A DNA stretch of 64,000 nt from a virus. The translations under genes and the position numbers were made by a program. The stretch is from the IMG/VR virus record IMGVR_UViG_3300021963_007714, positions 1 to 64,000 of that record. One strand, given 5' to 3'. Each line of letters opens with the position of its first letter. Within the stretch, counting starts at the first letter, position 1. Shown piece after piece: positions 20,899 to 60,547 of the stretch. Below the pieces are notes generated by a model. That model did no database searches, was not told the origin of the DNA, and saw only the letters and a program-made list of their open reading frames with translations.

Positions 20899-20906
20899 TA
20901 TAAATA
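20899..20906 (+). promoter_or_regulatory. Late promoter box (exact TATAAATA)
   Basis: An exact T4-type late box in the gap between the divergent ErpA-like gene and the gene at 20932. The predicted 20-nt leader contains GGAGG (20922-20926). It may drive the plus-strand run through IscU, IscA, ligase and IF-1. Confidence 0.7.
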
Positions 20907-20931
20907 TTCTTATAGACAAACGGAGGCGGTA

Positions 20932-21066: not shown

Positions 21067-21096
21067 TGAGGCGTTATATATAAAAAGGATACTGAT

Positions 21097-37493: not shown

Positions 37494-40400
37494 ATGCCGA
37501 TCTTAGTGTTTCCTCCTCCCGGTTCACCCGGTTCACAAGCTTTAACTGCTACCTTCGTAGTAGTAGTACCAGAAGCTGGAACACCTAAACAAGTCCTTCA
37601 AAGTATATCAACCTCTACTGTAACTGTTTTTATACAGGAAGGTATTCCAGTCACCAGTCAACCTGCGTATTATTCAGCAGATGTAGTTAATTGGTATATA
37701 AATGATAATACATTGTTGCCATTAACACCAGTAAGTCAAAGCACTATTACTTTGACCTATAGGTCAACACCTATCTACAATCCATTAAACAAGATTAAGA
37801 TAAGATCGTCTAGTTATGAATTTCCTATAATTGTTACACCTACTACAGTAACTAGCACTTCTCTTAGTTTTACCAATCCTATTGAACTTAATTTGCCAGT
37901 AATAAGCGATGCTAGGATATATTTTGGAGAAAATACAACTGTAGAGACGCCTAGGTATTCTGGAGATAGTGTCCCTACGTACGAATTAAAATACACAGGA
38001 AGAAAATTTCCTAAGATACCTGTGTTGGAAATTCCAGAGCGTGGATACCAACTAACTACCGTTACCAACACCACAGCTACCCTTGGACCAACAGTTGGGG
38101 TTCCTATAGTAAATCAAACATATTTTGATTCATCGAATTATGTTAATTACTACCTATATGATTCAGATATCTTTACTGTAACTCATAGTGTCCCGCCAAC
38201 GATAACAGTAAATTTTGTCTACGATCAGCGTATAAAAATTACCAACCTGATTAGAGTTGCCAATCAAGAATATACGTACCCTAGAGTTTTGACCCTAACA
38301 AGTTCAACTAATTCCAGTATAACATTTAATAATCCTGGAGATTTTGGTGTTTGGTCTCAAGGGTACATTTACTTTCAAGAAATCAATTCTATTCAAATAG
38401 CTAGTTACACAGCTACCAATAACACAGTACTATTGGGCAACTTTGATCTTGTAGCAAGAAGAAAAGTTAGAATTGGAGTAGAGTTAGCAGAACTGCCAAA
38501 CTTACCAAACGCAGAAGTTGTCCAAAAAAATGATCAGCTTAGGGCAATAGGATATCAATTTGGAAAGCCAGGCCCGAGTTTTCAAAATATCACAACCTCT
38601 AGTATTGTTATATTCCCTAATCCTGGATATTCAGCATTAACACAATCGGCCTATTACAGTTCTGACATTGTACGTAATTATATCTATGATGAAGATTTAT
38701 TCCCGTTAACTGCGTCAACAGAGTCAACTGTAGTTCTAACATTTAATCCTGTAGAATATATTAATTTAGTTAACAAAGTAAGAATTAGTGGAAGTAGCTA
38801 CACCTATCCAACTATACTAAATCTTACCAGTGCAACAAACACATCAGTTTCATTTGTCAATCCTGGTGATTTCCCAATTATATCAGAACCAGTAATTTAT
38901 TTTGGTCAGGACAGCATAACAGAAAATGTAAGATATTCAAGTGATCTAGTATCTGAATTTAGTTCGGCTTTGGTTTCAAATCCAGTTTTTAGAATTGTAC
39001 AACCATTATTTGAATTACGTCCTAGAGCAGCAATTTTAGTTACAGTAACTAACTATACCAGCACAATGTTTTCTAGTATAGGTATACCTATATTAAATCA
39101 AACTGCCTATTATACTTCAAATGTTGTAGATTACTATATAAATGATAATGATCTGTTGCCTTTGACCGCAATAAGCACAGCATCAATTACAATATCTTTC
39201 TTTAATAGCATATATACCAATCAGCTTAACAGAGTAAGAATAGCTAACGAAACTTATGAATATCCTAGAGTAATTAACCTCACAACATCAAATTCTACCA
39301 GTATAACTTTTAATAACCCTGGAGATTTTGGTATCATATCTGAAGGAAAAATCTATTTTCAAGAATCTGTGACACAGGTAAATTCAGTTTATAGTGAGTC
39401 ACCTTACCAGTTTAATATCGCCTATCCTACTCTAGATGTGAAGCGACATGTAAGAATAGGAGAACAATTTGTAGATACAACTCTAAGGGTAGGTAGCCAA
39501 GAATTATCAACTGTAACATCATCAGCTACCATTGTATACCCTGGACCAGCAATACCTATACCTTATTTGGAAAGTAAGTATTTGGCAGATGTGGTGAATT
39601 ATTATATCAATGATAATGATCTATTACCATTAACCAATTTAACTACGGCTTCGATCAGACTGAACTTTGCCTATACAACATTTCAAAACCCTATCAATAA
39701 AATTAGGATCTTTGGACCGGAGTATAACTATCCTAGATTAATCACGATAACCAGTGCTACAAATACCTATGTAGAATTCGCTAACCCCGGTGATTTACCA
39801 GTTATCAGTGATCCTAAATTTCAATTTGCTGAAAACAGTCAAATAGATACAGCTATCTACATAAGCCGAGATTTTGCTAATTTTACCTATCTGCCATATA
39901 GAAAAGTTAAATTAGGTAATGAAATAAAAGCCAGTTCTACCAGTACTATAACATCGGGTGCTGTGGCTAGATATAAATTTTCCTTACCACTTACTACACA
40001 ATTTTCTAATCAACTGCCTCCAAACATAGGTGCTATTAATGTATGGACAGCATTAGATCACGATCTACCATTCTTTAATACACCTCTCGTATATAATATT
40101 GCTCAAACAATTTATACAACTGGTTTTCCTGCTCCCGGTTTTTATACCTATACATCAGTTCAACGTGGAGATGTGGCCAGAGGCCTAGCACCAATAACTA
40201 TTCCAGGTGACATTGCTAGCTATACCAATAATTATTTGGTTTTCTTAGGCAGGGCTCCTTTAAGAGAACCTGCAGCAGGTTTGGTAAAAATAGGGCAAGG
40301 AGCACTTACAAGAAGAATAGTTGAACCAATTAGATTTACTCGTCCTAATATCTACATCACTGTTACATCAGCTACATCATTTGCTAGATCAGTTAACCTT

Positions 40401-43400
40401 CAAGATATACCTGCCAAATATACTAGTGATTATGTTTCATATTATCTTTATGATAATGACATTTTTACTATAACAAATCTTAGCACTGTAACTAGTTATG
40501 TATTGCCATTTATAGACAGCAATGTCAATTTAGATTTGTATACACCAGATAGCACAATACAATTGGCAAATAGAGATTCTGGGTATATCTATCCTAGTCC
40601 TATAACATTTACAAGCTATGATACTACTAGTGTTTCTATAACATTAGCTAGTGAATTGCCTATCATAAGTGGTCCTAGACTATTGTTTATACAGCCATCT
40701 AGTGTAGATATTTTATTAACTCAATCTACAGCTAGCTTTATAACAGCTCAAGGTAGCGTAGGTTCGCTCTATACACAAAGTCTGGTTTCTTCTATTCTAC
40801 CACCTGTATCACCTAGAGAAAGATTATTTTACAGCAGACTGGCACCTGGATATGGATTAAGAGGTATACCTATCGCGGAAAGTACCAGAAGCCAAATTTA
40901 TCCTATAGCGACAGTTACCACACCAAGAGTAGGCGAACATGTAGTAATAGGTGATCCATTCGCCAGCGTAGAACCTACACTAGGGTTAGGCAATTTTACA
41001 TTAAAGCCTAGACGCTCTCTTGTAGTCGGTGATGGCATCGCCATTGCTGGAAATATATTCCAGCCTAATAGAATTGAATATAGCAGATTCCCTGGAGTAT
41101 CACCAGGTGTAGATTTTGGTGTATATATAAGAACTCTATCCACTGTCACATCTAGCGCAGCGATAGTTTACCCAGGTCCGATTATACGAGTTCCTTACTT
41201 AGATAGTAATTACACCAGTGATGTAGTTAATTGGTATATTAATGAAGAAACTCTTTTACCTTTAACAGCAGTTTCTACAAGTACAATAAGGTTAACTTTT
41301 CAAAATACCAGTTATGTCAACCCGCTGAATAAGATACGTGTCTTTAATTCAAATTACACCTATCCTAATTCTATAACGCCAGGATTAATTAATTTAACCA
41401 GTGCTACAAACAACTACATTGAGTTTGCCAATCCAGGTAATTTTCCTGTAATAAGTGAACCAAGATTCCAGTTTGCAGAAATTAGTTCTGTAGATGTTGC
41501 CTTATTCTCTACAAGTGCAACTATTGTTCGTCCAATAGCATCTATATTGACTTCCACGTTGGTTACTGCAACTGTGTTTATGTCTTCGCTAGGAGCGGTT
41601 GATCTTATTACACGCCGTGTAAAAACAAACAACTTTATCAGTACAGATATTACAATTAGTTCTGGTGCTACAACACTTGACTATAGAAGAAAAAATCTAT
41701 TAGGATCAAATATTGCAGATGTACTGAGTACAGCTACACAGCTAACAGCAGGGACACTTACAACTAGAAGAAGTCTGCGTATTGGGGCGATTCTACAAGA
41801 TACACAAATTTCTACACCTGTAATAGCTAAATTTGATTTTATTGTTGCCCGTGCTAGAAGAATTTATAGTCAATGGGAAGGTTTTTACTCTAGTGCTACA
41901 CAAACTATCACACAAATTACTACCACTGCTACAATAAGATATCCTAATGTTGGTATTCCTATTATTTCGCAGCAGGCCAAGTACTCATCAGATGCTGTCA
42001 GCTGGTATATATATGATAATAATACACTGCCTATAAATCAAATTACAACAAGTTCTATAACCTATTTCTTTGATCCTTTTGCTTACATCAACCCAGATAA
42101 TGTGTTTAAAGCAGTAAATGAGCGTACTGGAGTAACACATGCGCCCTTATATGTTACGACTAGCACAGCTGGCAGCGTGACATTTGCAAATACAAGTATA
42201 CCTGTAGTTAGTGATCTAAAGATATATTTTGGCAGTTCATCTACACAAGATATAGTAACCTACAGCAGTCCTATTTTCCTACCTCGTACAGAATCATATG
42301 CTGACCAATTTACAGCAGTCAATAGAGCTAGTGTCCCTAGTGCTTTAAGAAATTATTACATGCACAAGATAGCTCCTGGGTACAACAGCGTGCAGGCAGT
42401 TTCATTTACTCATTTAACTGTGGGAGGTAGACCTCCTAGTCAATTAGACAACTATATTGGTACTGATGTTATTACTAATGAATCTGTCAACCTAGGTGCA
42501 TTACCAAGTAATAGGTATGATGTAGTTAATCAATATATCTATGATACAAATGTTCCACAAAGAACAACAGGTTACGATAGCAATATTACATTGAATTTTG
42601 ATAATAATAATGTTCCAGGAGTAACACCACTGAGATTTAAGCTTGGTCAAACTGTTAGATTTACCCAAAGTGAAAGCACATATACCGGTACAGCTACAAT
42701 AACAATATCAAACCTACAAGGCGTAACGTTTTCAACACCATCTGGATTTCCTGTCCTTGGCGGCATTGTAGTAACCAATATTACCACAGCCAGTTACAGC
42801 GTGGATTGGGCCTTTAGAGATTTATCAGACAAAGTTACATTTAGGAATAATACAAGGGTTTTAGAAAATCTTGCGCAGGTTGGAAGAAAACCTAATCTAA
42901 GAGGAATCAGTATTTTCTTAGAAAGAGGTATAACACATCAGCATACTTTACATAAAACAACCAGTGACGGTCTAGATTTTTATCGTGATTCGAGATTAGA
43001 GGGAGATTACCCTGTACAAACTACAGGAAGGTCTGCGGCTGAACCAATATTAATACCTACACCTGATCTGCGTAATCCTTATAATATTATTAATTCCTAT
43101 ATTTTTGATGATAATATTATTACCAATAATGCCAGAGCTGATAGAATACAATACAATGCTGTACAAAATTATATCTATGACAATGAAATATTTACAAGGT
43201 CAGTGATATCAGCATTTACAGGTACTAACCTCGTTACCTATGATTTTGATAGGAGAGATTTCAATACATTCCCAGCTGGTAGTATGATAAGGTTAAAGTA
43301 TGGTCTTAACCAAATTACTACAGCAACGGTAGTGAGCAGTACCGTATATGGAGTTACAATTCAAGATATAAAACAGTTTCCCGGTGCTAACAATCTAACT

Positions 43401-46400
43401 ATTTCTAGATATCCAGCTACTCTAGCCAATCAATTTACTGATAATTTCACAATTGATAACAAGGGGTATGCCATTTACAATTATTTGCTGGCTAGAATGG
43501 CCCCTGGTATTAGAAAAGGTTATACCAGTAACATATTTTACGCCAGTGAAACAAGTAGATTAGGGCCTTTACCTAAGTTATCAAGTAGTATTGTAGTCAA
43601 ACCAGATTCATGGTATGCTAGTAGAACAGTTACATCTGTCCAAACAAGTTCTACTATTGTATATCCTAATGGCAGGATTGAAATAACAGGTCGTAGTCAA
43701 GAATATACCAATAACACAGTTAACCAATACATCTTTGATAGAGATATATTTGTTGGTTCTTATATACTGTTCAATTCAACATATCTATTAGATAGCAATC
43801 AATACGCTACACCCAATGCAGATCGAATTCAATACAACAGTGTGAATATATACACTTATGATTTAGAATTATATTCAAGAACCAATATATTCCTAGACAG
43901 ATCAGTTATAACCTTGTATTTTAATAAGAATACCATAGTAATTAATCCTAACAACATCGTTAGAGTTAGTAACCAGATTACAGGATACAGCAACACCTTT
44001 ACAATTTTTAATGTTACATCTAGATCAGTTGACCTGCTGAATCCTAATCCATATAGTACATTCCCATCTATAAGTAACCTATTTTTAGAATTTGGTGTAG
44101 TAACAACAAGCGATTCGGCAAGCTTCAGTAATTATAATCGCATACCGATTCTTACACAATCTAATCTACCTGTGAGATCTCCTAGTGTAAGAAGAATCGA
44201 AACCAGTGCTACAACAATGGTTATGAGCTTGCCTACATATAGAGATAGGCTAACCACTGCTGCGAAGGTAATTGCTCCTACACAAATTTCTACTCAGGTA
44301 GCTAAGTCTTCTATAAAGATCAGTATAGGGTCAACTGTAGTAAGTCAAAATTTCAATAGAACTCTAACAGGTATAACCACTTCTACCTCAATTGTCTATC
44401 ATAGTTCAAGAGTGGCGCAAGTTACCGCTATAGGCAATAAATTCACGAACAATATTGTAAGCCTGTACACATTTGAAAGAGATATAATTGTTACTCAAAC
44501 TATTATCAGTCCTACTATAGATGTTTACTATCAAAACATTGTTCCTACTCTTAACTATGATAAGGTAAAAATTGAGCGTGCCGATACAGGTTACTCATTT
44601 GAAAGTAACATAATCAGTTTCCATGCTGGTGTTAGCGGTCTTCCACCTTATATAAAATTACCAGTAAGTATAGGATTCCCTGAAGTCAGCGCAACTCCTA
44701 TATTTTTATCGTTTGGTATTGCTATTCAAAATAATACTCCAATTTATACTGATAGTAACCAAATTGGTTATGTACCTTTACAGAGATATATTAGACAGAA
44801 AAATCAAATATTAACCCCAGTAGTTCAGGCCATTGATGTACCAATGGATCTGCGCAAAACTTGGACTGGTTCTACTGCTAGTAGTGTTATATCATATAGC
44901 GGTAATTATGGATTATTACCTGCTCCGGCAAGTTACACAAGTGATTATGTTTCCACCTATATCAATGATAGTGATATTTTTGTAATCACTCCGTTGGCCT
45001 CTACATCAACCGTTGTTTTAAATTTCCAAACTCACTTAGATATAGTGACTAATTTGAATGAAAACAATGTGATTAGGTTAAGCAACGGAACTAACGAATG
45101 GCAAGCTATTCTTACTCCTACAAATGTGTCAACGACTGCAATCACTTTTACTTACGTTAATTTTCCAGTGATTAGTGAACCTCAGGTATCGTTCCAAAGA
45201 ACCAGTAGTATTGCTACAGCAACTTATACAATGTCAAGAAGTGGCATCTATGTGGAATCTTTGTCCAAACAGACTGTACAGGTTAAAGCAGTAGAGCGTC
45301 GTCCAGAATATGCTGTTACTCGTCAAGGCATAAAATTAATTGGAGAAATAAGTTATCCAGTTAGAACTCTAAGCACTGTAACATCTACCGCCACAATAAG
45401 TTATCCTGGACCTGGCATTGAAATCATAGCTAGAAACAATTTTGATGTCTATAACATTGTATCAGAATATACGTTTGATAGTAATATAATAAGGTCTACA
45501 TCTGTATTAGACACAGTTCAATATAATACTGTTAATCTTTATACCTTCGACAGAGATATATGGATTAGATCGGTCATACGAGAAAACATTACATTATTTT
45601 ATACATTAAACGGACCAAATCCTAGCAACATAATCAAACTATACAAGACTAATACAGGTTATGAAGCAACACCTACTGTACTAGCATTTACTAATTACGA
45701 AGATGGGAAAAAATCAGTTACCATAGCCTATGAACCTAACTTCCCATCAATAAGCAATATGTTTATTCAGTTTGGGTTCAACAGTATTTCTAGCACACCA
45801 ATTTACTTAGATAATAATAGAATACCGTTGGTTACTGGTCCTAGATTCTTAACCAAGAACTATAGGATTCTAAGTTTTGTTCCTGAAGTTAAAGAAGTAT
45901 ATAACCAAAAACAAACACTGACTACTGTAACAACTACTGCTACACAGGTTTTTCCAAATTATGGAATACATACAAGTCATATACCTGCTACCTACACCAG
46001 TGACTATGTAACTTACTATACATATGATAATGATCTGTTCCCACTGACTACAATTAGTCAACCTGGTAATATTACTCTATTCTTTACACCAACTGATTAT
46101 ATTAACAATACCAATCAAATAAGATTAGGTAATAAAGAATATACCTATCCTAGTGTAATAAATTTAACCAGTGCTACTAATACCAGTGTTAGCTTTAACA
46201 TTGTGGGATCATTCCCTATTATATCAGACCCCACAATATTTTTTGCCGAAAACTCGTATATCGACACGGCTATCTATACAGTCTCATCTAGACCTATCAC
46301 CTATGATATTATTAAGCCACAAGGTATAAAATTACAGGATCCATCCAGACCGATTATCACTAAATCAACACTAACAACATTTGTAACTCCTGTAACACAG

Positions 46401-49400
46401 AGATCCAGCATTCCAATAACAGGAATAATTCAGTCTCGAAATAATTTTATTCCTAGTATATATGTACGTGACAATGAAATCTTAAGTTTTACAACTAGCA
46501 CAGCTAATATCAGTGACTTTGTATCGGTGTATACTTTTGATAGAGATATAATAACGGTAAGCAGCTTCAATGCTATAACGCTACAATTTACCTATCCAGG
46601 ATTTAGACAAATTACCGATAAAATCGCAGTGACTAATGTTAACAGCGGATACAGAACAATTCATACTGTATTAACCAGTAGTGAACGCACAGTGACATTT
46701 GCTTCAACCAGTAATTTCCCAAGTGTTTCTGAACTGTATATTGACTTTAATTGGATTAGTTCAACAGCTACAATTTCATACAATGACAGCATCAGCAGTA
46801 TTGCTCTATATCAGCCTAGTCTAATGAGCGAAGGGCAAGTTAGACCAAATGTTATCAACGGAGCCAATGTAAGAGAAGCCTACTTTAAGAGCCTGTTACA
46901 ACCATCAAGAGCTGGTCGCAGATCATTTGTTTATACTACAGAGATCACACCTATAACATATAATCCAAGAATCGAATCTCTACGTACTGTGAATCAACTT
47001 AGAGCCGATAATAGTTATGCCACTAGACAATTAACAGGGCTGTCAACTTCTACAAATATTACCTATCCAAACGCCTCTGTTCCAGTAACTGCTAGAAGTG
47101 GTTTGTTTAATTATAATATTGTGAGAGATTACATCTTTGACAATAATATTTTACCTAGAGAGTCTAGAACAATCAGTGCCATAACATTGTTCTTTGATAA
47201 GAACACTCAATTAGTTACTAACTTGGTAAAAATACAAAGTCCAAGTTTAGGTTATAGTTTTGAAATTACAGCTCTAAGCACAAGTCAAAATAGCATTACA
47301 ATACCAGCTATTCCTTTGCCAGATATATTAGATCTAGTTGTTTATTTTGGAGTTAGTGTGAGCACTAATACACCGATTTACCTAGATTATAATAGGGTAC
47401 CTAATGTAGGTAATCCTAGAGCATTGACCAATAAAAATCAAATACTGAGCCCTGTAGTTTCTAATATAGCGGATATCTCAAACCAGTTTAAAAATTTAAA
47501 CACTGTCACTACAACAAGTACATTGGTATTTCCTAACATAGGTATTCCTATCACTAACCAGGCAGCACAGTATACCAGTGATGTAGTCTCTTACTATATC
47601 TATGATAATGATCTATTACCTATTACGCAGTTAGCATCTACTTCAACAGTTACTCTGTTCTTTAACACCACCACCTACATTAATACTGACAATAAGATTA
47701 AGATTGTTAATCCAAACTGGGAATCATCGGTATACAACCTAACATCTGCCACAAGTTCGTATATAACTTTTGAAGCTGCGAATTTTGGTATTGTAAGTGA
47801 GGGAAGAATATTATTTGCCCAGACTTCTACAATAGACACTGCTGTATACTCTGAGATTAAGATAGCTACTCCTGTGGCTAAACTTTGGACCGGCATTGTT
47901 GTTAAGGATCCTAGCACTCCTAGAATTACTGTAAGACAAACCAGTCAAACTGTGTTTACACCAATAAGGATAAGTGGTGCTATTCCTGTTACCGGAATAA
48001 GATCTAGATCAAATAATTTCGTCAATACCTATATCTATGATACTGAATTCTTAACGTTTACAACATCAAATAATATCACCATAACCTTCGATGCTGTCAG
48101 TGCTGCTCAAGTCGGAAACAGTGTAATTATACATAATGGTCTAGGTTATGTCTCATCGTTCAGTCTCACATCTGCTACCACAAGATTAGCCACTTTTGTT
48201 AATCCAGGTAATTTCCCAGAAATCACCGGAATGTATTTTTATTACTATACCACACAATCTTCTGCTGTGACAATAGGCAATTACGATATAGTTAATAACA
48301 TTACAACAACCACAAGTCAATTAAGTTACTCAAATCAAAGTCCATTCTTTTATCATAGACTTGGTGTAAAGGGAATACCATTCCAGCGTAATCAACTGGC
48401 TACCCAAAATACTCCTGTGGCAAATTATGTCAAGCAGGGGCTAAAGGTTGTTGCGGACAGTTCATATCCTGCTAGATCATTGATTTCAGTTACAACTTCT
48501 TCGGACATAGTTTACATTGGTAATCCAATTTATATCACAGCTAGAAGCACAGAATATACTAATAATGTAGTGAGCCAATATATATTCGAAACAGATAGAT
48601 TTATAGGTAATAGAATTGTTACTGCTACTATTACACTCAGCTTCTACCCGACTGTTTATATAAATCCATTGAACAAGATTAGGCTGGTAAATCCTAATAA
48701 CGGGTATAGCCAAGATATCAACATCAGTAGTTCTACAAATAGAACGATTACCTTTACTCCGCCTTTGGGTGATTTTCCTGCGATCAGTGATTTATACTTC
48801 TTATTTGGACAGACATCAATTTCTTCCACACCGATATATACTGACAACAACAAGGTTACATTAATAGCAGCAATGGCCGCTGTAAGACCAAAATCTGTTA
48901 GAGCATTAATGACTTTACCTGAAGTTGTTGATATTGATAGAGTTTTTCAAACACTGACAACAGTTACTTCGACTAGTTCTTTGGTATTCCCAGGCAGTGG
49001 CACGCCGATATTAAATCAATATCCCACAAATACAACCACAGCAGTGACATGGTACTATAATGATGAGGATATCTTATATGTAACTCAAAATACCAGCAGC
49101 ACTATACGTTTGGCTTTCGAGTCTTCGACTTACATTAATCCTGTCAATAAGATTAAGATCGCACATGATGGATATGAATATCAAAGCATTATTTCTTTGA
49201 CTAGCGCCACTGATACCTACATTGAATTCGCTGACCCAGGTAATTTCCCAGTAGTAATTAATTCTAGAATTTACTTTGCTCAAAGCACCACACAAGATAT
49301 TGCTGTGTATGGACAGGGACGAAGTCCTGTGCGTATTGAAAAATATAGAGATATTAGTATTCTAAAAGAAATTAGATCGACTATAACTTTTAGAACTACA

Positions 49401-52400
49401 AGTACAGTTTATCAAACGCCTACAGGTGCAGTATATCCATTAGCCCTAACTGGTCAGACTGATCTAGTTAATGATAATGTGGTCAATTGGTACATCTATG
49501 ATTACGATACTATAACATTTACTCCAATCACTACAAGCACCATTACCTATAGCTTTGCTACAGGTACTAATTTAATACCGTTAATAAAAAATTCTACTAT
49601 CTACATTTTTAACGAAAATACAAAAATTGGGCAAACTGCGGCAATCGTTGGATTTACTACCAGTACCTTAACTGTAACAAGACCTGGATTACTACCTGAA
49701 ATAAGCGGTACTACTATATATCTAAACTTTACAAGTACTACAGCAGTCAGCACATATTCAGATGATGTACAGAAGATTGCAGGTATTGAAACAAGTGACA
49801 GCTATAAGACTATTTTTGAACCGAGAAATCAAAAGGAAGCTCTATATTGGTCCCTGTTAGCACCTGGAAAGTATGGTCAAACTTTTCCAGCACAGGGTAA
49901 GTCATTAACCGAATTAATCGATAGAAATAAAACTGCGGCATTTTTTAACAAGCTGGTATATAGACCTATAGAAGTTAAAATAACAGACATTAATAATAGT
50001 CTGTCTAGTCCAATTACTGTAACGTCAACTGCCCTTACTTTCTTAAATCCGGGCTATGAAATTGTTGCGCAACTTCCAACGAGCCAATCGATGGACATAG
50101 TAAATTGGTACATAAACGAAAATACTTTATTGCCTATAACAGCCATTACTACCACAAGTTATCAATTAAACTTCTATGGCAACGTTTATCAAAATCCTCT
50201 AAACAAAGTTAGGATTGTAAAAGGAAATTATACAAGTGCTGTATTGACTGTGACCAATTCTATACCAAATCAAATTACAGTTAATGCACCTCTAGGACTT
50301 CCACCAGTTTCTGGAGGGTTCATCTACTTCGCAGACAACATCAGTATTGACACTGCTAGCTACACTGATGTAAAACGTGTGCCTGTCACCGGTAACTTAC
50401 TTACCCAATCAAGTATCGTAACTAATTTAGCACCTATAACACCTCAGCAACATTTATTTTGGAGCCTATTAAGTCCTAGTAGTTATGGTAGAAGTGAAAT
50501 CATAATTGGCAAGCAGACTGCTCCTATTGTTGGCGCTAGAGATATTAATCCTACTGTACAATCTGCTGTATATGGTACAAGCACGGTTATCTATATCACT
50601 AATCCAGTATCAGTTAATGGCAGATCAAATGAATTTACCAATAATGTTGTGAACGATTATATCTATGATAATGATATCAGTATCTTCGTTCCGATAACTA
50701 CCAGCACAGTGACATTATTCTACGATAATGATCAGGCCATAACTAGTAATTACATTAGGTTGGTGAAAAATTTCACAGGATATACACAAGATTTTAATGC
50801 TATAACAGTCACTAATTCACAAACTACCTTCGTAACAACAAGTAGTTTGCCTGCTATAAGTGAAATGCAAATTTACTTTGGCTATCCAACAATTACCGAT
50901 GTTATTACTTACAATGATACCGGAAGAGTGGAGAATATAGCCGCTATTTCTAGTATACCAAAACTTCAGCTCATTACATTGGGTATAAAAGGTTATAACG
51001 GTATTACACTAAATCCGTTAGATAAGGTGTTAAGAGAAAGTGATCCTTTCTATAAAATTAAAACTTTAACCTCTGTTTCATCTACTTCCACTATTGTATA
51101 TCCTAATCAAGGTTATGAACCTATCGCTGTAACAGATTCTATCAGTGATAATTTTGTAACTGTATATACCTACGATCAAGAAGTATTGTTACAGACCTAT
51201 ACCACAAGTTCGTTTATTACCTATGACTTTTATGCCACAGGATACTATATAAATCCAAATAACACTGTAAGAATAGTCAATAGCAATAATGGATTTGACA
51301 GAATTTACAGTATTGTATCTGCTACTAATTATTCTATCACAGTTTCTAATACCGGTGATCTTCCAGATGTTTCAGGAACAAGATTGTTCTTTGGCATTAA
51401 TACAACTATTGATACAGATAATTATTCATATAGTGTACAGAACTTCGATAATCTAATTGGTAATTTAACTCAAGCGTCACAAAGACTTGGAGAGGCTGTT
51501 TCTGGAATAAAATTATCTAGCTTTAGTTTACAAAATTATGATAACCCGGGATTCATATTAGATCCTTATTATGGAATTGTATCAGACTCAACCTATCAAA
51601 ATAATTCTTTAGAATATATTACCTATGATAAAGATGTTTTTGTTACAGGGATATTAAGTCGTGGAGTAACAACTACACTCTATATCAATAATCCATATAA
51701 TAAGATCTATGATCCAAAATTATTGTTTTATCCAACAAACTATGCCAAGTTAACCTTAGGTACCTTTACTAGTGTGGTTTACCTGTTGGCAACTGATTAT
51801 TATACAGTGACATTTAATACTGTAGCAGGTATGCCAGTAGAAGTTAATGGTATGACAATTGTAAATGTCAGCTATGCTTACTATCCACAAAGTGAAGCTA
51901 ATAAGATTGTATTGACCAATGGTATTTTATTCCAGCCTACTACTCCTAAGCAGGCACTAGCCAGCAGTTTGTACAATCCATTAAGGGGTATTGATTATAA
52001 CATTGATCGGGTTCTTCATCAACCTACTACAATACTGAAATACGATCCTAAACTCAGTACTTTCTATAGTAGTAGAATACCTGGAGATTTCAGTCATGTA
52101 TTGCTAGATCAAACATCAAATACTAGGGAAATATATGACATTCCTACCTGGTATGAATATGATCGTGACCTACTAACATATTCTACAGGTTCTGTATCTA
52201 CTAAGAAGCTAAGTTTCAATACTATTGTAGGTGTACCATTTCCTGCTGGTAGATCTATAAGAATTCGTAATGACAGCATTAATCTAAATTACATTACTAC
52301 AGTTACAGAAGCTGCAGTTGGATATGTTATTATAAATCAACCTACTGTGACCTTCCCAACAGCTGGTACTTTTGTAGAATTGGTTGAATCTGTGCTTTAT

Positions 52401-53672
52401 CCACAGAGTATGGTTGTAACCACTGTGTCTCCCCAATCCGCCAAAGAAAATCTGTATTACTTTGACAGAAGTCCAGGTTTAAGGGCTACTAAAGGACCAC
52501 CAGTTGCTAGTCTACAGACTTTATTAGATAGCGGCTCTGGAATAAGAAAAGACAGTACCATCATAAAGGGTGACGTTTTACGTTTTGATGTAGGAAAAAT
52601 CCTACAACCTATCAAAATCATCGCAGTAGATAATAGAGTTTCGGTGGCAAGTACTAAGATTAAATTGACTGCACGTAGTGTTCAAGATGATCGTAGAATA
52701 GTTGGCAAGCTAAGAAGTGCTATCACAGTAAGAGCTGATAGTTCAACCATTGTCTATGGTAAGTTGGCCGAAAGACGTATAGTACCTAACCTAGTGTCTG
52801 TGAGAGATAACCTGTCAGTGTCTAAACTTACCAACTATGAAAACATAGGTGAAGTTACTGGACCATATATCACTATAACTTCACATACAGATCTAGGAAG
52901 AACAGTTACAGGATATAGTCAAGAGTGGGCAGATAACTTTACCACAGTATATGCCTTTGACCAAGACATAATTACTCAAACCTATGTTAGAACTGACACT
53001 GTTCAAATATTTTATAATGCTGGTAATGATATAACACCCCTATTCCCTACAGGGTCAGAGTTTTACCTACAAGACCTTAACACCGGATATCAACGACAAT
53101 TTATAGCTTTAGAAGGCAATATTGGAAACGTAGTGATTAATAATCCAGGGTTCTTACCTGGTATCAGCAACATGCAGATAGTTTCAACTGCCTCTAGTTA
53201 TCCAATAACATTGACATTTGGTCAACAGGTACTACAGCCTTATTATGTGGGTAGTTATATCAGTGTAATTAATAGCATTGGCCAAAGTGTGAAAGTGGTT
53301 TTAACCGCAGCGACTAGAAGTAGTGTAACCTATGTTAAAAATTATTCTTACAGAGACTTTAGGTTTGCGCCAGGCAGTGTTAGTCTAGCCAGCTTGAGCG
53401 TACCAGTATACCCAAGTGCTACAGTTAGACCGACAAGCAAACCTACAAATATCAGAGAAAACTTATTCTTTGTAAGCCTGGCACCAAATTACGAGCACAG
53501 AGCAGAATTAGAATTTACCTACAGCAATTTGGTTGATGATGTCAGCGTGCTGTCCTATGATAGTGCTACCGGAATCATTAATAAATATATGGTTGGTGAT
53601 ACTGCTAAGGGCCAAACTGGAGTTACAGATCCTAGCGCCAGAAGAGTAGAACCCATACAGTTCTGGAGCTAA
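37494..53672 (+). CDS. Giant repeat protein (5392 residues)
   Basis: One uninterrupted 16.2-kb frame, a quarter of the window. It is built of about 28 degenerate modules, roughly 130-200 residues apart, each with a signature like S-D-V-V-x-Y-Y-I-Y-D-N-D-L-L-P-L, then x-N-P-x-N-K-I-R-I, YTYP, LTSATNTSV-x-F, NPGDFP-x-ISEP and IYFAE. A second motif, KENLYYSLLAPGYG-like, occurs about ten times from the second fifth to the end (LFYSRLAPGYG near 40825; LFFVSLAPNYE near 53465). It is very rich in Thr, Ser, Tyr, Ile and Asn; I noticed no cysteine, signal peptide or catalytic motif. Neighbours are virion fibre genes, so a very long whisker, fibre or tail-sheathing polymer is likely. Function unproven; I know no close family. 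Confidence 0.8.
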   Translation: MPILVFPPPGSPGSQALTATFVVVVPEAGTPKQVLQSISTSTVTVFIQEGIPVTSQPAYYSADVVNWYINDNTLLPLTPVSQSTITLTYRSTPIYNPLNKIKIRSSSYEFPIIVTPTTVTSTSLSFTNPIELNLPVISDARIYFGENTTVETPRYSGDSVPTYELKYTGRKFPKIPVLEIPERGYQLTTVTNTTATLGPTVGVPIVNQTYFDSSNYVNYYLYDSDIFTVTHSVPPTITVNFVYDQRIKITNLIRVANQEYTYPRVLTLTSSTNSSITFNNPGDFGVWSQGYIYFQEINSIQIASYTATNNTVLLGNFDLVARRKVRIGVELAELPNLPNAEVVQKNDQLRAIGYQFGKPGPSFQNITTSSIVIFPNPGYSALTQSAYYSSDIVRNYIYDEDLFPLTASTESTVVLTFNPVEYINLVNKVRISGSSYTYPTILNLTSATNTSVSFVNPGDFPIISEPVIYFGQDSITENVRYSSDLVSEFSSALVSNPVFRIVQPLFELRPRAAILVTVTNYTSTMFSSIGIPILNQTAYYTSNVVDYYINDNDLLPLTAISTASITISFFNSIYTNQLNRVRIANETYEYPRVINLTTSNSTSITFNNPGDFGIISEGKIYFQESVTQVNSVYSESPYQFNIAYPTLDVKRHVRIGEQFVDTTLRVGSQELSTVTSSATIVYPGPAIPIPYLESKYLADVVNYYINDNDLLPLTNLTTASIRLNFAYTTFQNPINKIRIFGPEYNYPRLITITSATNTYVEFANPGDLPVISDPKFQFAENSQIDTAIYISRDFANFTYLPYRKVKLGNEIKASSTSTITSGAVARYKFSLPLTTQFSNQLPPNIGAINVWTALDHDLPFFNTPLVYNIAQTIYTTGFPAPGFYTYTSVQRGDVARGLAPITIPGDIASYTNNYLVFLGRAPLREPAAGLVKIGQGALTRRIVEPIRFTRPNIYITVTSATSFARSVNLQDIPAKYTSDYVSYYLYDNDIFTITNLSTVTSYVLPFIDSNVNLDLYTPDSTIQLANRDSGYIYPSPITFTSYDTTSVSITLASELPIISGPRLLFIQPSSVDILLTQSTASFITAQGSVGSLYTQSLVSSILPPVSPRERLFYSRLAPGYGLRGIPIAESTRSQIYPIATVTTPRVGEHVVIGDPFASVEPTLGLGNFTLKPRRSLVVGDGIAIAGNIFQPNRIEYSRFPGVSPGVDFGVYIRTLSTVTSSAAIVYPGPIIRVPYLDSNYTSDVVNWYINEETLLPLTAVSTSTIRLTFQNTSYVNPLNKIRVFNSNYTYPNSITPGLINLTSATNNYIEFANPGNFPVISEPRFQFAEISSVDVALFSTSATIVRPIASILTSTLVTATVFMSSLGAVDLITRRVKTNNFISTDITISSGATTLDYRRKNLLGSNIADVLSTATQLTAGTLTTRRSLRIGAILQDTQISTPVIAKFDFIVARARRIYSQWEGFYSSATQTITQITTTATIRYPNVGIPIISQQAKYSSDAVSWYIYDNNTLPINQITTSSITYFFDPFAYINPDNVFKAVNERTGVTHAPLYVTTSTAGSVTFANTSIPVVSDLKIYFGSSSTQDIVTYSSPIFLPRTESYADQFTAVNRASVPSALRNYYMHKIAPGYNSVQAVSFTHLTVGGRPPSQLDNYIGTDVITNESVNLGALPSNRYDVVNQYIYDTNVPQRTTGYDSNITLNFDNNNVPGVTPLRFKLGQTVRFTQSESTYTGTATITISNLQGVTFSTPSGFPVLGGIVVTNITTASYSVDWAFRDLSDKVTFRNNTRVLENLAQVGRKPNLRGISIFLERGITHQHTLHKTTSDGLDFYRDSRLEGDYPVQTTGRSAAEPILIPTPDLRNPYNIINSYIFDDNIITNNARADRIQYNAVQNYIYDNEIFTRSVISAFTGTNLVTYDFDRRDFNTFPAGSMIRLKYGLNQITTATVVSSTVYGVTIQDIKQFPGANNLTISRYPATLANQFTDNFTIDNKGYAIYNYLLARMAPGIRKGYTSNIFYASETSRLGPLPKLSSSIVVKPDSWYASRTVTSVQTSSTIVYPNGRIEITGRSQEYTNNTVNQYIFDRDIFVGSYILFNSTYLLDSNQYATPNADRIQYNSVNIYTYDLELYSRTNIFLDRSVITLYFNKNTIVINPNNIVRVSNQITGYSNTFTIFNVTSRSVDLLNPNPYSTFPSISNLFLEFGVVTTSDSASFSNYNRIPILTQSNLPVRSPSVRRIETSATTMVMSLPTYRDRLTTAAKVIAPTQISTQVAKSSIKISIGSTVVSQNFNRTLTGITTSTSIVYHSSRVAQVTAIGNKFTNNIVSLYTFERDIIVTQTIISPTIDVYYQNIVPTLNYDKVKIERADTGYSFESNIISFHAGVSGLPPYIKLPVSIGFPEVSATPIFLSFGIAIQNNTPIYTDSNQIGYVPLQRYIRQKNQILTPVVQAIDVPMDLRKTWTGSTASSVISYSGNYGLLPAPASYTSDYVSTYINDSDIFVITPLASTSTVVLNFQTHLDIVTNLNENNVIRLSNGTNEWQAILTPTNVSTTAITFTYVNFPVISEPQVSFQRTSSIATATYTMSRSGIYVESLSKQTVQVKAVERRPEYAVTRQGIKLIGEISYPVRTLSTVTSTATISYPGPGIEIIARNNFDVYNIVSEYTFDSNIIRSTSVLDTVQYNTVNLYTFDRDIWIRSVIRENITLFYTLNGPNPSNIIKLYKTNTGYEATPTVLAFTNYEDGKKSVTIAYEPNFPSISNMFIQFGFNSISSTPIYLDNNRIPLVTGPRFLTKNYRILSFVPEVKEVYNQKQTLTTVTTTATQVFPNYGIHTSHIPATYTSDYVTYYTYDNDLFPLTTISQPGNITLFFTPTDYINNTNQIRLGNKEYTYPSVINLTSATNTSVSFNIVGSFPIISDPTIFFAENSYIDTAIYTVSSRPITYDIIKPQGIKLQDPSRPIITKSTLTTFVTPVTQRSSIPITGIIQSRNNFIPSIYVRDNEILSFTTSTANISDFVSVYTFDRDIITVSSFNAITLQFTYPGFRQITDKIAVTNVNSGYRTIHTVLTSSERTVTFASTSNFPSVSELYIDFNWISSTATISYNDSISSIALYQPSLMSEGQVRPNVINGANVREAYFKSLLQPSRAGRRSFVYTTEITPITYNPRIESLRTVNQLRADNSYATRQLTGLSTSTNITYPNASVPVTARSGLFNYNIVRDYIFDNNILPRESRTISAITLFFDKNTQLVTNLVKIQSPSLGYSFEITALSTSQNSITIPAIPLPDILDLVVYFGVSVSTNTPIYLDYNRVPNVGNPRALTNKNQILSPVVSNIADISNQFKNLNTVTTTSTLVFPNIGIPITNQAAQYTSDVVSYYIYDNDLLPITQLASTSTVTLFFNTTTYINTDNKIKIVNPNWESSVYNLTSATSSYITFEAANFGIVSEGRILFAQTSTIDTAVYSEIKIATPVAKLWTGIVVKDPSTPRITVRQTSQTVFTPIRISGAIPVTGIRSRSNNFVNTYIYDTEFLTFTTSNNITITFDAVSAAQVGNSVIIHNGLGYVSSFSLTSATTRLATFVNPGNFPEITGMYFYYYTTQSSAVTIGNYDIVNNITTTTSQLSYSNQSPFFYHRLGVKGIPFQRNQLATQNTPVANYVKQGLKVVADSSYPARSLISVTTSSDIVYIGNPIYITARSTEYTNNVVSQYIFETDRFIGNRIVTATITLSFYPTVYINPLNKIRLVNPNNGYSQDINISSSTNRTITFTPPLGDFPAISDLYFLFGQTSISSTPIYTDNNKVTLIAAMAAVRPKSVRALMTLPEVVDIDRVFQTLTTVTSTSSLVFPGSGTPILNQYPTNTTTAVTWYYNDEDILYVTQNTSSTIRLAFESSTYINPVNKIKIAHDGYEYQSIISLTSATDTYIEFADPGNFPVVINSRIYFAQSTTQDIAVYGQGRSPVRIEKYRDISILKEIRSTITFRTTSTVYQTPTGAVYPLALTGQTDLVNDNVVNWYIYDYDTITFTPITTSTITYSFATGTNLIPLIKNSTIYIFNENTKIGQTAAIVGFTTSTLTVTRPGLLPEISGTTIYLNFTSTTAVSTYSDDVQKIAGIETSDSYKTIFEPRNQKEALYWSLLAPGKYGQTFPAQGKSLTELIDRNKTAAFFNKLVYRPIEVKITDINNSLSSPITVTSTALTFLNPGYEIVAQLPTSQSMDIVNWYINENTLLPITAITTTSYQLNFYGNVYQNPLNKVRIVKGNYTSAVLTVTNSIPNQITVNAPLGLPPVSGGFIYFADNISIDTASYTDVKRVPVTGNLLTQSSIVTNLAPITPQQHLFWSLLSPSSYGRSEIIIGKQTAPIVGARDINPTVQSAVYGTSTVIYITNPVSVNGRSNEFTNNVVNDYIYDNDISIFVPITTSTVTLFYDNDQAITSNYIRLVKNFTGYTQDFNAITVTNSQTTFVTTSSLPAISEMQIYFGYPTITDVITYNDTGRVENIAAISSIPKLQLITLGIKGYNGITLNPLDKVLRESDPFYKIKTLTSVSSTSTIVYPNQGYEPIAVTDSISDNFVTVYTYDQEVLLQTYTTSSFITYDFYATGYYINPNNTVRIVNSNNGFDRIYSIVSATNYSITVSNTGDLPDVSGTRLFFGINTTIDTDNYSYSVQNFDNLIGNLTQASQRLGEAVSGIKLSSFSLQNYDNPGFILDPYYGIVSDSTYQNNSLEYITYDKDVFVTGILSRGVTTTLYINNPYNKIYDPKLLFYPTNYAKLTLGTFTSVVYLLATDYYTVTFNTVAGMPVEVNGMTIVNVSYAYYPQSEANKIVLTNGILFQPTTPKQALASSLYNPLRGIDYNIDRVLHQPTTILKYDPKLSTFYSSRIPGDFSHVLLDQTSNTREIYDIPTWYEYDRDLLTYSTGSVSTKKLSFNTIVGVPFPAGRSIRIRNDSINLNYITTVTEAAVGYVIINQPTVTFPTAGTFVELVESVLYPQSMVVTTVSPQSAKENLYYFDRSPGLRATKGPPVASLQTLLDSGSGIRKDSTIIKGDVLRFDVGKILQPIKIIAVDNRVSVASTKIKLTARSVQDDRRIVGKLRSAITVRADSSTIVYGKLAERRIVPNLVSVRDNLSVSKLTNYENIGEVTGPYITITSHTDLGRTVTGYSQEWADNFTTVYAFDQDIITQTYVRTDTVQIFYNAGNDITPLFPTGSEFYLQDLNTGYQRQFIALEGNIGNVVINNPGFLPGISNMQIVSTASSYPITLTFGQQVLQPYYVGSYISVINSIGQSVKVVLTAATRSSVTYVKNYSYRDFRFAPGSVSLASLSVPVYPSATVRPTSKPTNIRENLFFVSLAPNYEHRAELEFTYSNLVDDVSVLSYDSATGIINKYMVGDTAKGQTGVTDPSARRVEPIQFWS

Positions 53673-57095: not shown

Positions 57096-57114
57096 AAGCA
57101 TAAGCATAGAAAAG

Positions 57115-57142
57115 AAGGCTGCTATACGCAGCCTTTCTTTTT
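57115..57142 (+). terminator. Rho-independent terminator
   Basis: AAGGCTGC, loop TATAC, GCAGCCTT, then TCTTTTT: an 8-bp perfect stem with a T-rich tail. It lies 20 nt after the virion gene stop and just before the next late promoter box, as at 37446. Confidence 0.85.
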
Positions 57143-57150
57143 AATAAATA
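57143..57150 (+). promoter_or_regulatory. Late promoter box (AATAAATA), near-leaderless
   Basis: AATAAATA ends 7 nt before ATG 57158 and begins at the end of the preceding terminator. Predicted transcription start is 2 nt upstream of the AUG. The ATCATGC start context is shared with 2433 and 37494. Confidence 0.6.
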
Positions 57151-57157
57151 TAAGATC

Positions 57158-60100
57158 ATGCGATTAGAAGACATCAAAGAAGGCAGCAGAGTTGATCATC
57201 AACATCAATTCAAAGAGATGTTTGCTAGATTCCTACCTATTGCTATAGAAATTCTCAATCTAAAATCTCTGCCTGAATTTCACTTTGAAGCATTTTTAGA
57301 TCATCCTCAACAACCTACCTTCGGTATGTATGTCAACGGTGAAAATAAATTGTATGTAGGCCTAAGTGGTCGTCATCCTAATGACATCTTTAGAACCATA
57401 GCACATGAATTAACTCACTACAAACAAGACACTGAACACATGCTGGATGATCGCAGCGGCGAGACTGGTAGTCCTATTGAAAACCAAGCCAATGCCATGG
57501 CTGGTATCATCATGCGTCATTTTAACAAAACCTATCCTGACTATCTTCGCAGTAAACCTGTTATGGAAGATATTGATGTCACTGATGAAAGTCTCAAAGG
57601 TTTGGCTGCTGCTGGACTAATAGGTCTAGGCATGTTAGGTGGTCCCAAAGATGTAGCCAGTGGTAACCTACCACAAGACCTACAAAAGGCACAGCAGCAA
57701 CACCGTGTTCAAATGGCTAAGAAACCTATGGCCAAACCCGCAGCGACAAAACCAGCAGCAGCTAAACCTTTACCAGCTAAAGCGACCCCTTTGTTAAAAG
57801 TAGCCAAGGCTAATGGTATTAAAGGCGTAGAACTAGCACAGTTTTTGGCACAAATGGAACATGAAAGTCTTGACTTTAAGAAGATGAAGGAGTTAGGTAA
57901 ATCGACCTACTTCAACAAATATGATCCAAAACATAACCCTAAATTAGCTAATAAATTAGGAAACAAATTCAAGGGTGACGGACTACAATTTAGAGGTCGT
58001 GGCTTTATACAATTAACAGGCAGAGAAAACTATACACAGGCCAGTCGTGACATATTTGGTGATGATAGGTTAGTTAAGAAACCAGACCTAGCAGCACAGC
58101 CAGATATAGCAGCACGTATAGCAGTATGGTATTGGACTGATCGTGTGAAACCTTTGGTCAAAGACTTTTCAGATACTACTCGTGTTACAAAGATTATCAA
58201 TGGTGGACTAAACGGACTTGAAGATAGAGAAAATAATTTCAGAGACTATATGGCCAGTCTTGGCCTAATGGAAAAATGGTCAATGAAGTATAAAAAGAGT
58301 ATCAATTGCGCCAATCCCAAAGGGTTCAGTCAGCGTGCTCACTGTCAAGGTCGTAAGAAAACAGAAGATGTAGAACAAGATCCAGGAGATCCTATACCTT
58401 TTCCAGCAGGCACTACTTCGGTAGATGTTAGTGATCCCTATGATTGGTATAAACTAGGCATGGTAATAAGTGATCTAGATGATGCCAATCCTCAAGCATT
58501 TGGACGAGGTGGTCCCAGCACTGTGATTGCCTTTGGCAGTGAAGATGAAGAACATAGACTGCTGCCATACCTTAAAAGACTTGGACTTAAACTAAAAGAC
58601 ATTGACAAACCCAGTGACACTAGAAAAATTGTGCCCGCCAAGGCTGTGTTAGACAAATTGGAAGAAGGTTTTAAACTAGACGAACTTAATATTAATCAAA
58701 CGCTGGCCTTTATCAAACAGGCACATGGTGATCAACTCTATGGCAAACTGCCCTATTGGACCCATCCTCGTGCTGTAGCCATGACAGGCAAAAAGATCTT
58801 TGGCAACAAGTTTAATAGTGATGCTGTAAAGGTTGCCTTCTTACATGATGTGGTAGAAGATACTAATATAAGTATAGATGAATTAGGCAAGTTAGACTTT
58901 TCACCACAGGTCATTGAAGCAGTGAGCCTGCTGACAAAGAACAAGACATTGACCTATCGTCAAAATATAGAAAACATTATCAACAGCGGCAACCCTTTGG
59001 CCATGATGGTCAAATATGCTGACAACTATGAAAACTATTCAGGTGATAAGAGCGACTGGGATTCTGCTCGAGCAGCCAGCAGTCAAAAGAAATACTTGAT
59101 GAGCCTTAATATGTTAGGGAGTAAGTTAGGTGTAAAACATCACGAGCAAAATTTAAAAGAACTAGGAACTACACAATATAAAGTAACAGAACCTAGAGAC
59201 ATGGTCAACGTTGATTTTAGATCCAAGCAAATTACCTACAAAGTTTTTAAATTCAAAGTAGATAAGCAGGTATTTCTAATTGTGCTCACTGTAAAAGACC
59301 AGGCAATGCCGGGCTCTAAGAAAAAGGTTCCAACCCTAAATGTAGCGTTTGGTAGGCAAGATAAAAACGGTTGGGACGTTGACGATATTGACACTAACCT
59401 AACTGGTGATAATCAAAATCAATTTCAAATCTATTCCACTGTGATCAAGGCCATACAAAAGTTTATTACTCAATTGAATCCTAATGTAGCACAAATTATA
59501 ATAAAAGGAGACAATGAGAGACAACAGGTAATGTATGATAGATTTTTTAATTCACGCTACTTGGAGAAATTTTTTCCAGGTTGGCAATTAAACCCAACAA
59601 CTAAAACTCTAATAAAAAATCAAAGTCAAAATTTAAAGGAACTTTTGGACCCTAAATTAGCCATAGATCTTGATTGGGCAGAGGGTAGTGATTATATTGC
59701 TGCCAGAGGTTATGTCACAGTGACTGATCAATATGGCAACAAAGAAGATGTAGAATTAGAAGTAGAATTCGGGGAATTTCCACAAAGAAATCGTAAAGAA
59801 TACGAAGTTCAATTTAAAGTAGGCGATAGTTATGATATAACAGGTGGTGGCAACGCTAATGTGATTTTTGCCACGGTTATACAGGCCTGTAAAGATTTCG
59901 TGGAAATGTATAAACCAGATCGATTATTCTTCACAGCAAAAGAGCAGTCTAGAGCAAGAATGTATGATACACTGACTAAACGTGTGGCCAAGCAGGTAGG
60001 ATGGCACGTTATACCATTTGATGAAATACAAAAGGATCCATTGTATAGAAATAACAGTGATAATGGGTTCGTGTTTGTCATAGGGAAAGGTGCTGCACCT

Positions 60101-60547
60101 GAAAAATGGTCCAGTGCTCAACAGCCACAACACGGTAGTTTTATGCCTATTTTCTATGTATATAATGTAGATAAAGATACACCTACTGTGGCAGTTAAGG
60201 TTAGGGCCCCAAATAGGGAGACTGCTGTTCAGCACGCTATGAAAATAGAACCCAGTTTTAAAGATTTGGATTTAATGCAGATACACGCCTTGAACAGCCT
60301 ACCCAAGCGTGAAGTCACTGATGTAATAGATGGTGGCACAGCAGAAGATCCTAGAAAGGTAGGAGAAAACTTTGCTGATGGTAAGAATCCACAGGATAAA
60401 GGTGATAGTGGTAGACACGGCATAAAAAAAGGTATTACAATAGCACAACTAAAAAAGATTAGATCCAGTGACTCAGCCAGTCCAAGAAAAAAGCAGTTGG
60501 CACACTGGCAGATCAATATGAGACAGGGGCGTAGTAAAAAAGGATAA
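57158..60547 (+). CDS. Multidomain enzyme: HExxH zincin, GH19-like muramidase, RelA/SpoT-like HD domain
   Basis: A 1129-residue protein with several unlike domains. Residues 1-135: zincin-type metalloprotease, IAHELTHYKQD with HELTH at 83-87. Residues 185-210: Lys/Ala/Pro linker. Residues 212-372: GH19/muramidase-like, MEHESLDF (233-240) with a candidate catalytic Glu and GLQFRGRGFIQLTGRENY (275-292). Residues 382-400: NCANPKGFSQRAHCQGRKK, a motif I recall from virion proteins of marine phages. Residues 513-660: HD hydrolase like RelA/SpoT, THPRAVAM, HDVVEDT (563-569), KYADN (619-623). Residues about 670-830 and 835-1010: two copies of an unknown module. C-terminus GRHGIKKG then AHWQINMRQGR is another recurrent motif. 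It may be packaged and cut by proteolysis. Confidence 0.75.
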   Translation: MRLEDIKEGSRVDHQHQFKEMFARFLPIAIEILNLKSLPEFHFEAFLDHPQQPTFGMYVNGENKLYVGLSGRHPNDIFRTIAHELTHYKQDTEHMLDDRSGETGSPIENQANAMAGIIMRHFNKTYPDYLRSKPVMEDIDVTDESLKGLAAAGLIGLGMLGGPKDVASGNLPQDLQKAQQQHRVQMAKKPMAKPAATKPAAAKPLPAKATPLLKVAKANGIKGVELAQFLAQMEHESLDFKKMKELGKSTYFNKYDPKHNPKLANKLGNKFKGDGLQFRGRGFIQLTGRENYTQASRDIFGDDRLVKKPDLAAQPDIAARIAVWYWTDRVKPLVKDFSDTTRVTKIINGGLNGLEDRENNFRDYMASLGLMEKWSMKYKKSINCANPKGFSQRAHCQGRKKTEDVEQDPGDPIPFPAGTTSVDVSDPYDWYKLGMVISDLDDANPQAFGRGGPSTVIAFGSEDEEHRLLPYLKRLGLKLKDIDKPSDTRKIVPAKAVLDKLEEGFKLDELNINQTLAFIKQAHGDQLYGKLPYWTHPRAVAMTGKKIFGNKFNSDAVKVAFLHDVVEDTNISIDELGKLDFSPQVIEAVSLLTKNKTLTYRQNIENIINSGNPLAMMVKYADNYENYSGDKSDWDSARAASSQKKYLMSLNMLGSKLGVKHHEQNLKELGTTQYKVTEPRDMVNVDFRSKQITYKVFKFKVDKQVFLIVLTVKDQAMPGSKKKVPTLNVAFGRQDKNGWDVDDIDTNLTGDNQNQFQIYSTVIKAIQKFITQLNPNVAQIIIKGDNERQQVMYDRFFNSRYLEKFFPGWQLNPTTKTLIKNQSQNLKELLDPKLAIDLDWAEGSDYIAARGYVTVTDQYGNKEDVELEVEFGEFPQRNRKEYEVQFKVGDSYDITGGGNANVIFATVIQACKDFVEMYKPDRLFFTAKEQSRARMYDTLTKRVAKQVGWHVIPFDEIQKDPLYRNNSDNGFVFVIGKGAAPEKWSSAQQPQHGSFMPIFYVYNVDKDTPTVAVKVRAPNRETAVQHAMKIEPSFKDLDLMQIHALNSLPKREVTDVIDGGTAEDPRKVGENFADGKNPQDKGDSGRHGIKKGITIAQLKKIRSSDSASPRKKQLAHWQINMRQGRSKKG

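Follow-up and report, generated by a model that had tools for sequence, protein, structure and literature searches.

We analysed a 64,000-nucleotide stretch of viral DNA (positions 1 to 64,000 of IMG/VR record IMGVR_UViG_3300021963_007714, here called the window) from an uncultured giant (jumbo) T4-like bacterial virus. An intact open reading frame (ORF) with an ATG start (57158..60547) encodes a multidomain protein of 1129 residues, denoted P0001, which carries a zincin (module Z), a GH19 domain, a basic KWS-motif module (C), a module U, an HD domain, two GNAT-like modules (D1, D2) and a basic C-terminal tag (T). The peptide at its N terminus and a Glu-ending motif retained at its module boundaries suggest that P0001 is probably a late, head-packaged cargo polyprotein of the polyvalent type, processed by the gp21-type protease of a T4-type jumbo phage. 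All window features located below as start..end lie on the plus strand; the whole 109-kb record is denoted G000, and other G and L numbers denote related records and loci.

A zincin, a GH19-like muramidase and a RelA/SpoT-like HD domain had been proposed to share this chain in an earlier sequence-only reading, and the intact ORF together with family and structure searches bears this out. Homologue alignment and a structure model mark module Z (residues 9-138, 57182..57571) as a gluzincin-like metallopeptidase: its HELTH sequence forms the HExxH motif at residues 83-87, and H83, E84, H87 and the downstream Glu ligand E108 are invariant across 12 homologues, which is the gluzincin pattern. Library matches of the zincin are weak (phrog_87 metallo-protease, 1.1e-3; Peptidase_M78, 0.13), a sequence search of solved structures with it returned no match, and a tblastn scan using the zincin alone reached 7 loci only. 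The GH19 endolysin-type domain (residues 206-370, 57773..58267) matches phrog_181 endolysins (1.5e-41, residues 207-376), Pfam Glyco_hydro_19 (6.6e-8) and the PWe2 endolysin structure 9ms7 (4.8e-22). Its putative catalytic residues E236 and E245 align with the HES and LQE motifs of the SPN1S endolysin 4ok7, whose HES Glu and second Glu we take to be catalytic, and the Thr of the GRGFIQLTG motif is also present; endolysin or muramidase activity is thus predicted. As AlphaFold gave a low-confidence model of the whole chain (mean pLDDT 56), GH19 and much of the HD domain were assessed by sequence.

The HD module (residues 510-664, 58685..59149) is of the SpoT/Mesh1 type and matches phrog_990 metal-dependent phosphohydrolases (4.2e-29, residues 512-678), TIGR00691 spoT_relA (2.2e-9) and the PDB structures of Lmo0812, RelSeq and MESH1. 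The metal ligands, whose presence the sequence-only reading had left to an alignment, are all in place (H536, H563, D564, D622); with E567, D568 and N626 they are conserved in close homologues and correspond to the Mn ligands (H, HD, D) and catalytic E-D pair of the small alarmone hydrolase family. Against an alarmone substrate stands the R-K pair that precedes PYxxHP in RelSeq and Mesh1, which is replaced by Y-G in P0001 (QLYGKLPYWTHP), the Tyr aligning with the guanine-clamping Arg; we take R44-K45 of RelSeq to be the base-clamping pair. The proposal that the protein removes (p)ppGpp is therefore lowered, while an HD phosphohydrolase stands by homology. We regard (p)ppGpp or a related alarmone as a plausible substrate, if a little short of a probable one.

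P0001 begins with the short peptide MRLEDIKE/G (residues 1-8, 57158..57181; the slash marks the candidate cut), which ends in (L/I)xE. In the T4 capsid-targeting sequence (CTS) the N-terminal residues direct targeting, residues 8 and 10 matter for gp21 processing, and cleavage follows the rule L/I-X-E (PMC9026906). Counted in residues from the first conserved helix, the P0001 peptide occupies the same position as that of a tagged standalone zincin, MRAREFVVE/S (L047), and as an internal VNE/D (L003). Standalone copies of other modules typically start in the same manner (D2, MRFREIIKE/LLDPKLAVD; HD, MKSFTEHLTE/N in L033; KWS, MRAFEFLTE/K), and these peptides resemble the T4 CTS with its gp21 cleavage motif. 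Where the modules are internal, the targeting half is lost and [LIVFM]xE is kept at the same place. The resulting candidate processing sites in P0001 are LME/K at the start of the KWS module (residues 370-372, 58265..58273), marked by the conservation of internal copies; LDE/L at the start of the HD module (residues 507-509, 58676..58684), equivalent to the standalone LTE/N; LKE/L before D1 (residues 666-668, 59153..59161), which is LQE/L in L002; LKE/L before D2 (residues 826-828, 59633..59641), equivalent to the standalone IKE/L; and VGE/N before the C-terminal tag (residues 1068-1070, 60359..60367), marked by the junction counts of module T.

The claim that these are cleavage sites is based on position and conservation, not on the number of motifs. 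Across 77 distinct internal contexts of the KWS module, P1 is Glu in 75 and P3 is L, V, I, F or M in 74, compared with a background [LIVMF]xE frequency of 1.5% per position; hydrophobic residues occupy P2 in about 10% and P4 in 20% of the contexts, and conservation is absent from the other upstream positions (P4-P10 variable). The HD module has L or V at P3 and E at P1 in 9 of 10 contexts, the tenth (L033) carrying its LTE one residue more N-terminal than the scored column. All 66 junctions with the C-terminal tag have Glu at P1, and 62 of the 66 have V, I, L or M at P3. This pattern bears on an unlikely alternative in which P0001 is packaged and injected intact, the internal [LIV]xE motifs are uncut CTS remnants of gene fusion, and the chain works undivided or is cut after injection by the zincin that it carries. 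The standalone tags do show the origin of the internal motifs, and polyvalent proteins often carry a zincin proposed as the processor of the chain (PMC5512222), but if the remnants were drifting, Glu at P1 and a hydrophobic residue at P3 would not persist in 96-97% of contexts with P2, P4 and more distant positions randomised, and many fused relatives have no zincin. Internal processing of P0001 is moderately supported, and on this pattern we hold it to be probable.

A TAAATA box, the core of a T4-type late promoter, lies 13 nt upstream of the ATG (57145..57150) and points to late expression of P0001 from a predicted near-leaderless mRNA. TAAATA occurs 12-13 nt before the start codon in 5 of the 36 plus-strand genes of the window, versus 0.08 expected per 5-nt bin; TAAATATA by itself showed no enrichment in the window, the positional TAAATA test being the positive one. 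The box likewise precedes tagged genes at 19970, 28622, 31172 and 85683. With a spacing of 11-13 nt it is found before the ATGs at 2433, 19970, 28622, 31172, 37494 and 57158 of the window and at 85683 and 104109 of the record; these putative late genes of the T4 type would be near-leaderless, and many encode CTS-tagged or structural proteins. An intrinsic-terminator-like hairpin read from the DNA, GAAGGCTGC-TATAC-GCAGCCTTTC followed by a T run (57114..57137), separates the P0001 gene from the upstream gene, which encodes a 1039-residue protein.

Some genomes related to G000 encode a protease that could act on such motifs. A gp21-type Peptidase_S77 is found in 5 of 26 related records (G004, G009, G013, G022, G024), which are 5 of the 6 records above 130 kb (131-400 kb). 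The Peptidase_S77 gene of G013 lies within a canonical gp21-gp22-gp23 cluster, as judged by reading and gene order. The G013 gp23 capsid protein (91917-93095, minus strand) reads KYLSE/SATAGATSAGN and a tagged 86-residue protein of the same genome (174382-174642, minus strand) starts MKISDILRE/TATAGATSAGN, so that a near-identical [ST]ATAGATSAGN follows the candidate cut in both.

Published virion proteomes support the packaging of tagged proteins in related phages. In the virion proteome of cyanophage S-CREM2, determined by mass spectrometry (MS; PMC10665884), 6 of the 28 virion proteins classed as non-structural or hypothetical carry the tag, against 0 of the 24 structural proteins and 3 of the 165 proteins that went undetected (Fisher p = 3.5e-4). 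Four tags are clear and all belong to virion proteins: a SAM hydrolase (MKDFDSFLEE), a kinase (MKRFDAFLTE), a cytidylyltransferase (MKNFSSFLTE) and a small protein (MKDLHSFLTE). The tag therefore predicts packaging in cultured relatives. In the corresponding virion MS reports, the NMNAT of S-SCSM1 (MKSFLQFLKE/A) and the cytidylyltransferase of S-SZBM1 (MRFRQFIIE/A) are likewise virion proteins (PMC9602691, PMC9146016). In S-CREM2 (OR473000), genes gp6-gp17 cluster a virion-packaged Cas9-like nuclease, the SAM hydrolase and the kinase, and several neighbours are CTS-like tagged.

These proteomes also speak to a second, rather improbable alternative, in which P0001 is not a head protein at all and is instead a soluble late enzyme or a tail or lysis protein, its GH19 domain being an endolysin, the rest acting in the producing cell, and the likeness to a CTS being coincidental. 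The GH19 domain does match endolysins, the gene adjoins tail-fibre genes, and the tag motif is degenerate: tag-like N termini number 16 among the G013 ORFs and 5.6 in shuffles, an enrichment of only about 3-fold (maximum of 14 in 2000 shuffles). On the other side, tagged cyanophage proteins occur in virions, and a separate Hydrolase_2 cell-wall hydrolase gene lies at 19044 of the same record, which makes a lysis-only role of GH19 less likely; in related loci, an independent GH19 ORF accompanies the fused one. The least probable explanation is that the [LIV]xE motifs have nothing to do with proteolysis and belong to the structure or to a linker, say as a helix cap that the KWS and ENFADG folds need. 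Protein-initial T modules do still carry MKENF, but six KWS copies at or next to the initiator Met have no Glu (M/GWSEKYK, MA/GWSDKYK), so that the Glu is not intrinsic to the fold of the module, and four unrelated modules (Z, C, HD, D2) have the motif just where a CTS would be cleaved.

Several observations weigh against a packaged and processed P0001. P0001 contains 18 [LIVMF]xE motifs where 14.8 are expected, some of them within domains, such as VVE567 in the HD active site. The internal sites of D1 and D2 are based on two related sequences. Standalone T modules start MKE/N, so the Glu may belong to the module and the VGE1070/N junction is the weaker evidence. The gp21 protease was not found in the 109-kb G000 fragment, and protease and substrate are therefore not seen together on one contig. 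Two of the six S-CREM2 tag matches are weak, and internal-site cleavage was demonstrated in none of the phages searched. Close zincin relatives (L002, L004, L034) keep M-R-x-x-E-(L/F) without IxE, and partly for this reason the packaging of P0001 is still something that we infer, although we consider it well supported and very likely.

The sequence-only reading had made its functional proposal depend on packaging and cleavage, for which the CTS-like tag, [LIVFM]xE at module starts, gp21 homologues, cyanophage proteomics and the late-promoter box now supply independent support. On the reading that we favour, P0001 would be synthesized late as a polyprotein of internal-head-protein modules, and MRLEDIKE would act like a T4 CTS and bring the chain into the prohead core. 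A gp21-type prohead protease would then remove the tag and cut after Glu at LME372/K, LDE509/L, LKE668/L, LKE828/L and perhaps VGE1070/N, freeing zincin-GH19, KWS-tag, HD, GNAT-like and T fragments that would remain in the head with the DNA and enter the host together with it. In the host, GH19 could help to breach the wall, proteins of the host or the phage could be targets of the zincin, and an alarmone or a related nucleotide could be hydrolysed by the HD domain. More generally, we see an even chance that T4-type jumbo phages have joined separately capsid-targeted enzymes under a single targeting peptide, with a prohead-protease site retained for each. A single round of packaging and maturation in the head would then deliver several injected enzymes, including a nucleotide-signal hydrolase. 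If so, the rule of an N-terminal M[KR]...[LI]xE with [LIVFM]xE at module starts would predict packaged and injected proteins of T4-like phages together with their cut positions, and would single out, with no need for phage cultures, candidate effectors of the first minute of infection (a wall hydrolase, a protease, an alarmone-type hydrolase and acetyltransferase-like domains). Phages would then build polyprotein-like cargo that is matured within the head.

Each part of P0001 is an exchangeable module, as the modules are separate, permuted, lost or re-fused in other uncultured phages. L002, which is 95% identical and lies on another contig, holds the whole chain in the same order minus the HD cassette, a clean absence at the DNA level, and L003 is a subset of the chain that lacks everything from after U up to the C-terminal tag. 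Because L002 keeps the order, the fusion is not an assembly chimera. HD precedes GH19 in L018. The 400-kb G004 encodes zincin and HD in one 297-residue protein (at 381 kb) and D2 with the C-terminal tag in another (at 285 kb). Standalone copies exist of HD (L033, 202 residues), D2 (L005, L006), the zincin (L047, L048) and KWS-motif proteins. The combination, which had been called unusual, is less isolated than claimed: polyvalent proteins are known, and a search for similar fusions found every module in other combinations.

Module C, the basic KWS module (residues 373-404, 58274..58369; KWSMKYKKSINCANPKGFSQRAHCQGRKK), has a net charge of +7. Its motif, KWSxKYKxSINCxNPKGFSQxAHC, was located by DNA pattern, the protein query being too short; it is present in at least 120 viral IMG/VR contigs, where it usually begins after [LIVFM]xE, and in the cultured Synechococcus and Prochlorococcus phages S-SM2, Bellamy, P-TIM68 and S-CAM9. 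Module U (residues 405-503, 58370..58666) is, by locus comparison, common to many tagged proteins of related phages. The basic C-terminal motif pointed out in the sequence-only reading proved to be a real module, T (residues 1071-1129, 60368..60544, net charge +11), encoded by 474 IMG/VR stretches and present as a single copy in each of 23 of the 26 related phage contigs; it had no match among 50,697 cultured phage records. A role as a genome-wide packaging tag on many proteins was rejected, given its single copy per record. As the KWS motif and module T are strongly basic, they could keep fragments on the packaged DNA.

The two copies of one module previously described after HD share a predicted strand and helix order, which is GNAT-like in both D1 (residues 669-825, 59162..59632) and D2 (residues 829-1063, 59642..60346), but their sequence likeness is not significant (BLASTP E 1.8), and D2 is a DUF6934 module (residues 861-946, 1.4e-11). 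A recent tandem duplication is unsupported by sequence. Foldseek matches of D1 and D2 to GNAT proteins reach a probability of 1.0 but have E about 2e-3 and TM about 0.4, and the matches of D2 to GNAT acetyltransferases of the PDB are of the same kind (probability up to 1.0 but E about 2e-3). In a viral structure library D2 matches many phage proteins, including Alt-type ADP-ribosyltransferases (E 5e-4 to 1e-2).

Further genes were noted elsewhere in the record. A gene run at 7253-11821 of the window includes three matches to phage radical-SAM families (QueE-like and others), and 20559-22095 holds a NifU_N/IscU-like gene and two A-type Fe-S carrier genes (Fe-S_biosyn). A 5392-residue protein of the tail-fibre region is encoded at 37494-53672. 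Further along G000, curli-type genes at 89121-93927 (L082 9622-14431) encode CsgG, a curlin-repeat protein and an FecR-domain protein, together with a 613-residue protein with similar repeats, recognised by reading only. The region at 99138-106163 (L083 639-7664), which may include a host-virus junction, encodes a PhoX phosphatase (Pfam 4.7e-127), a PstS-like protein and a CHASE2-adenylate/guanylate cyclase; TAAATA lies 13 nt ahead of the ATG of the cyclase gene.

Among known systems, the T4 internal proteins IPI-III and Alt share with P0001 a short N-terminal M[KR]-...-[LI]xE peptide, late expression and, as we propose for P0001, cargo injected to act on the host; a gp21-family protease and a gp22/gp23 cluster occur in genomes related to the P0001 phage, and a fold matching D2 is present in Alt-type proteins, Alt itself being a classical injected protein of T4. 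In T4 cargo the mature region remains a single main chain (with trimming of Alt at both ends), whereas P0001 has several domains, each with a candidate internal cut site, and its modules shuffle between proteins. Many injected head proteins of SPN3US and phiKZ are also matured after Glu by a gp21-related protease (PMC5694885, PMC10052503), in another phage lineage and with another cleavage consensus; the searches made returned no comparable multi-enzyme polyprotein. The tagged non-structural enzymes detected by MS in virions of S-CREM2, S-SCSM1 and S-SZBM1 (SAM hydrolase, APH kinase, NMNAT/cytidylyltransferase) are separate proteins, described in the consulted parts of the source papers as possibly virion-carried, with no targeting peptide mentioned there. 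Phage small alarmone hydrolases of phrog_990, as in Pseudomonas phage Adele (PMC12846349), share the SpoT/Mesh1-like HD domain with its HD..ED..D ligands; they are annotated as separate ORFs, while the HD module here sits in a cargo chain or bears a CTS (L033). A cargo polyprotein of the P0001 kind is not described in the literature searched, most subscription journals being outside its scope. Polyvalent proteins (PMC5512222) are large multidomain phage chains that combine zincin, lysozyme, GNAT and nucleotide-signalling domains and for which injection is predicted, and P0001 likewise joins several enzymatically disparate domains in one chain. Their RelA/SpoT domain is a synthetase NTase, whereas that of P0001 is an HD hydrolase domain (the terms "HD domain" and "chitinase" are absent from the text of PMC5512222), and their processing is ascribed to the zincin, whereas in P0001 a prohead protease is the more likely agent. 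Most likely, then, P0001 works like the T4 internal proteins and the polyvalent proteins combined, and differs from both in its retained internal sites and its HD hydrolase domain.

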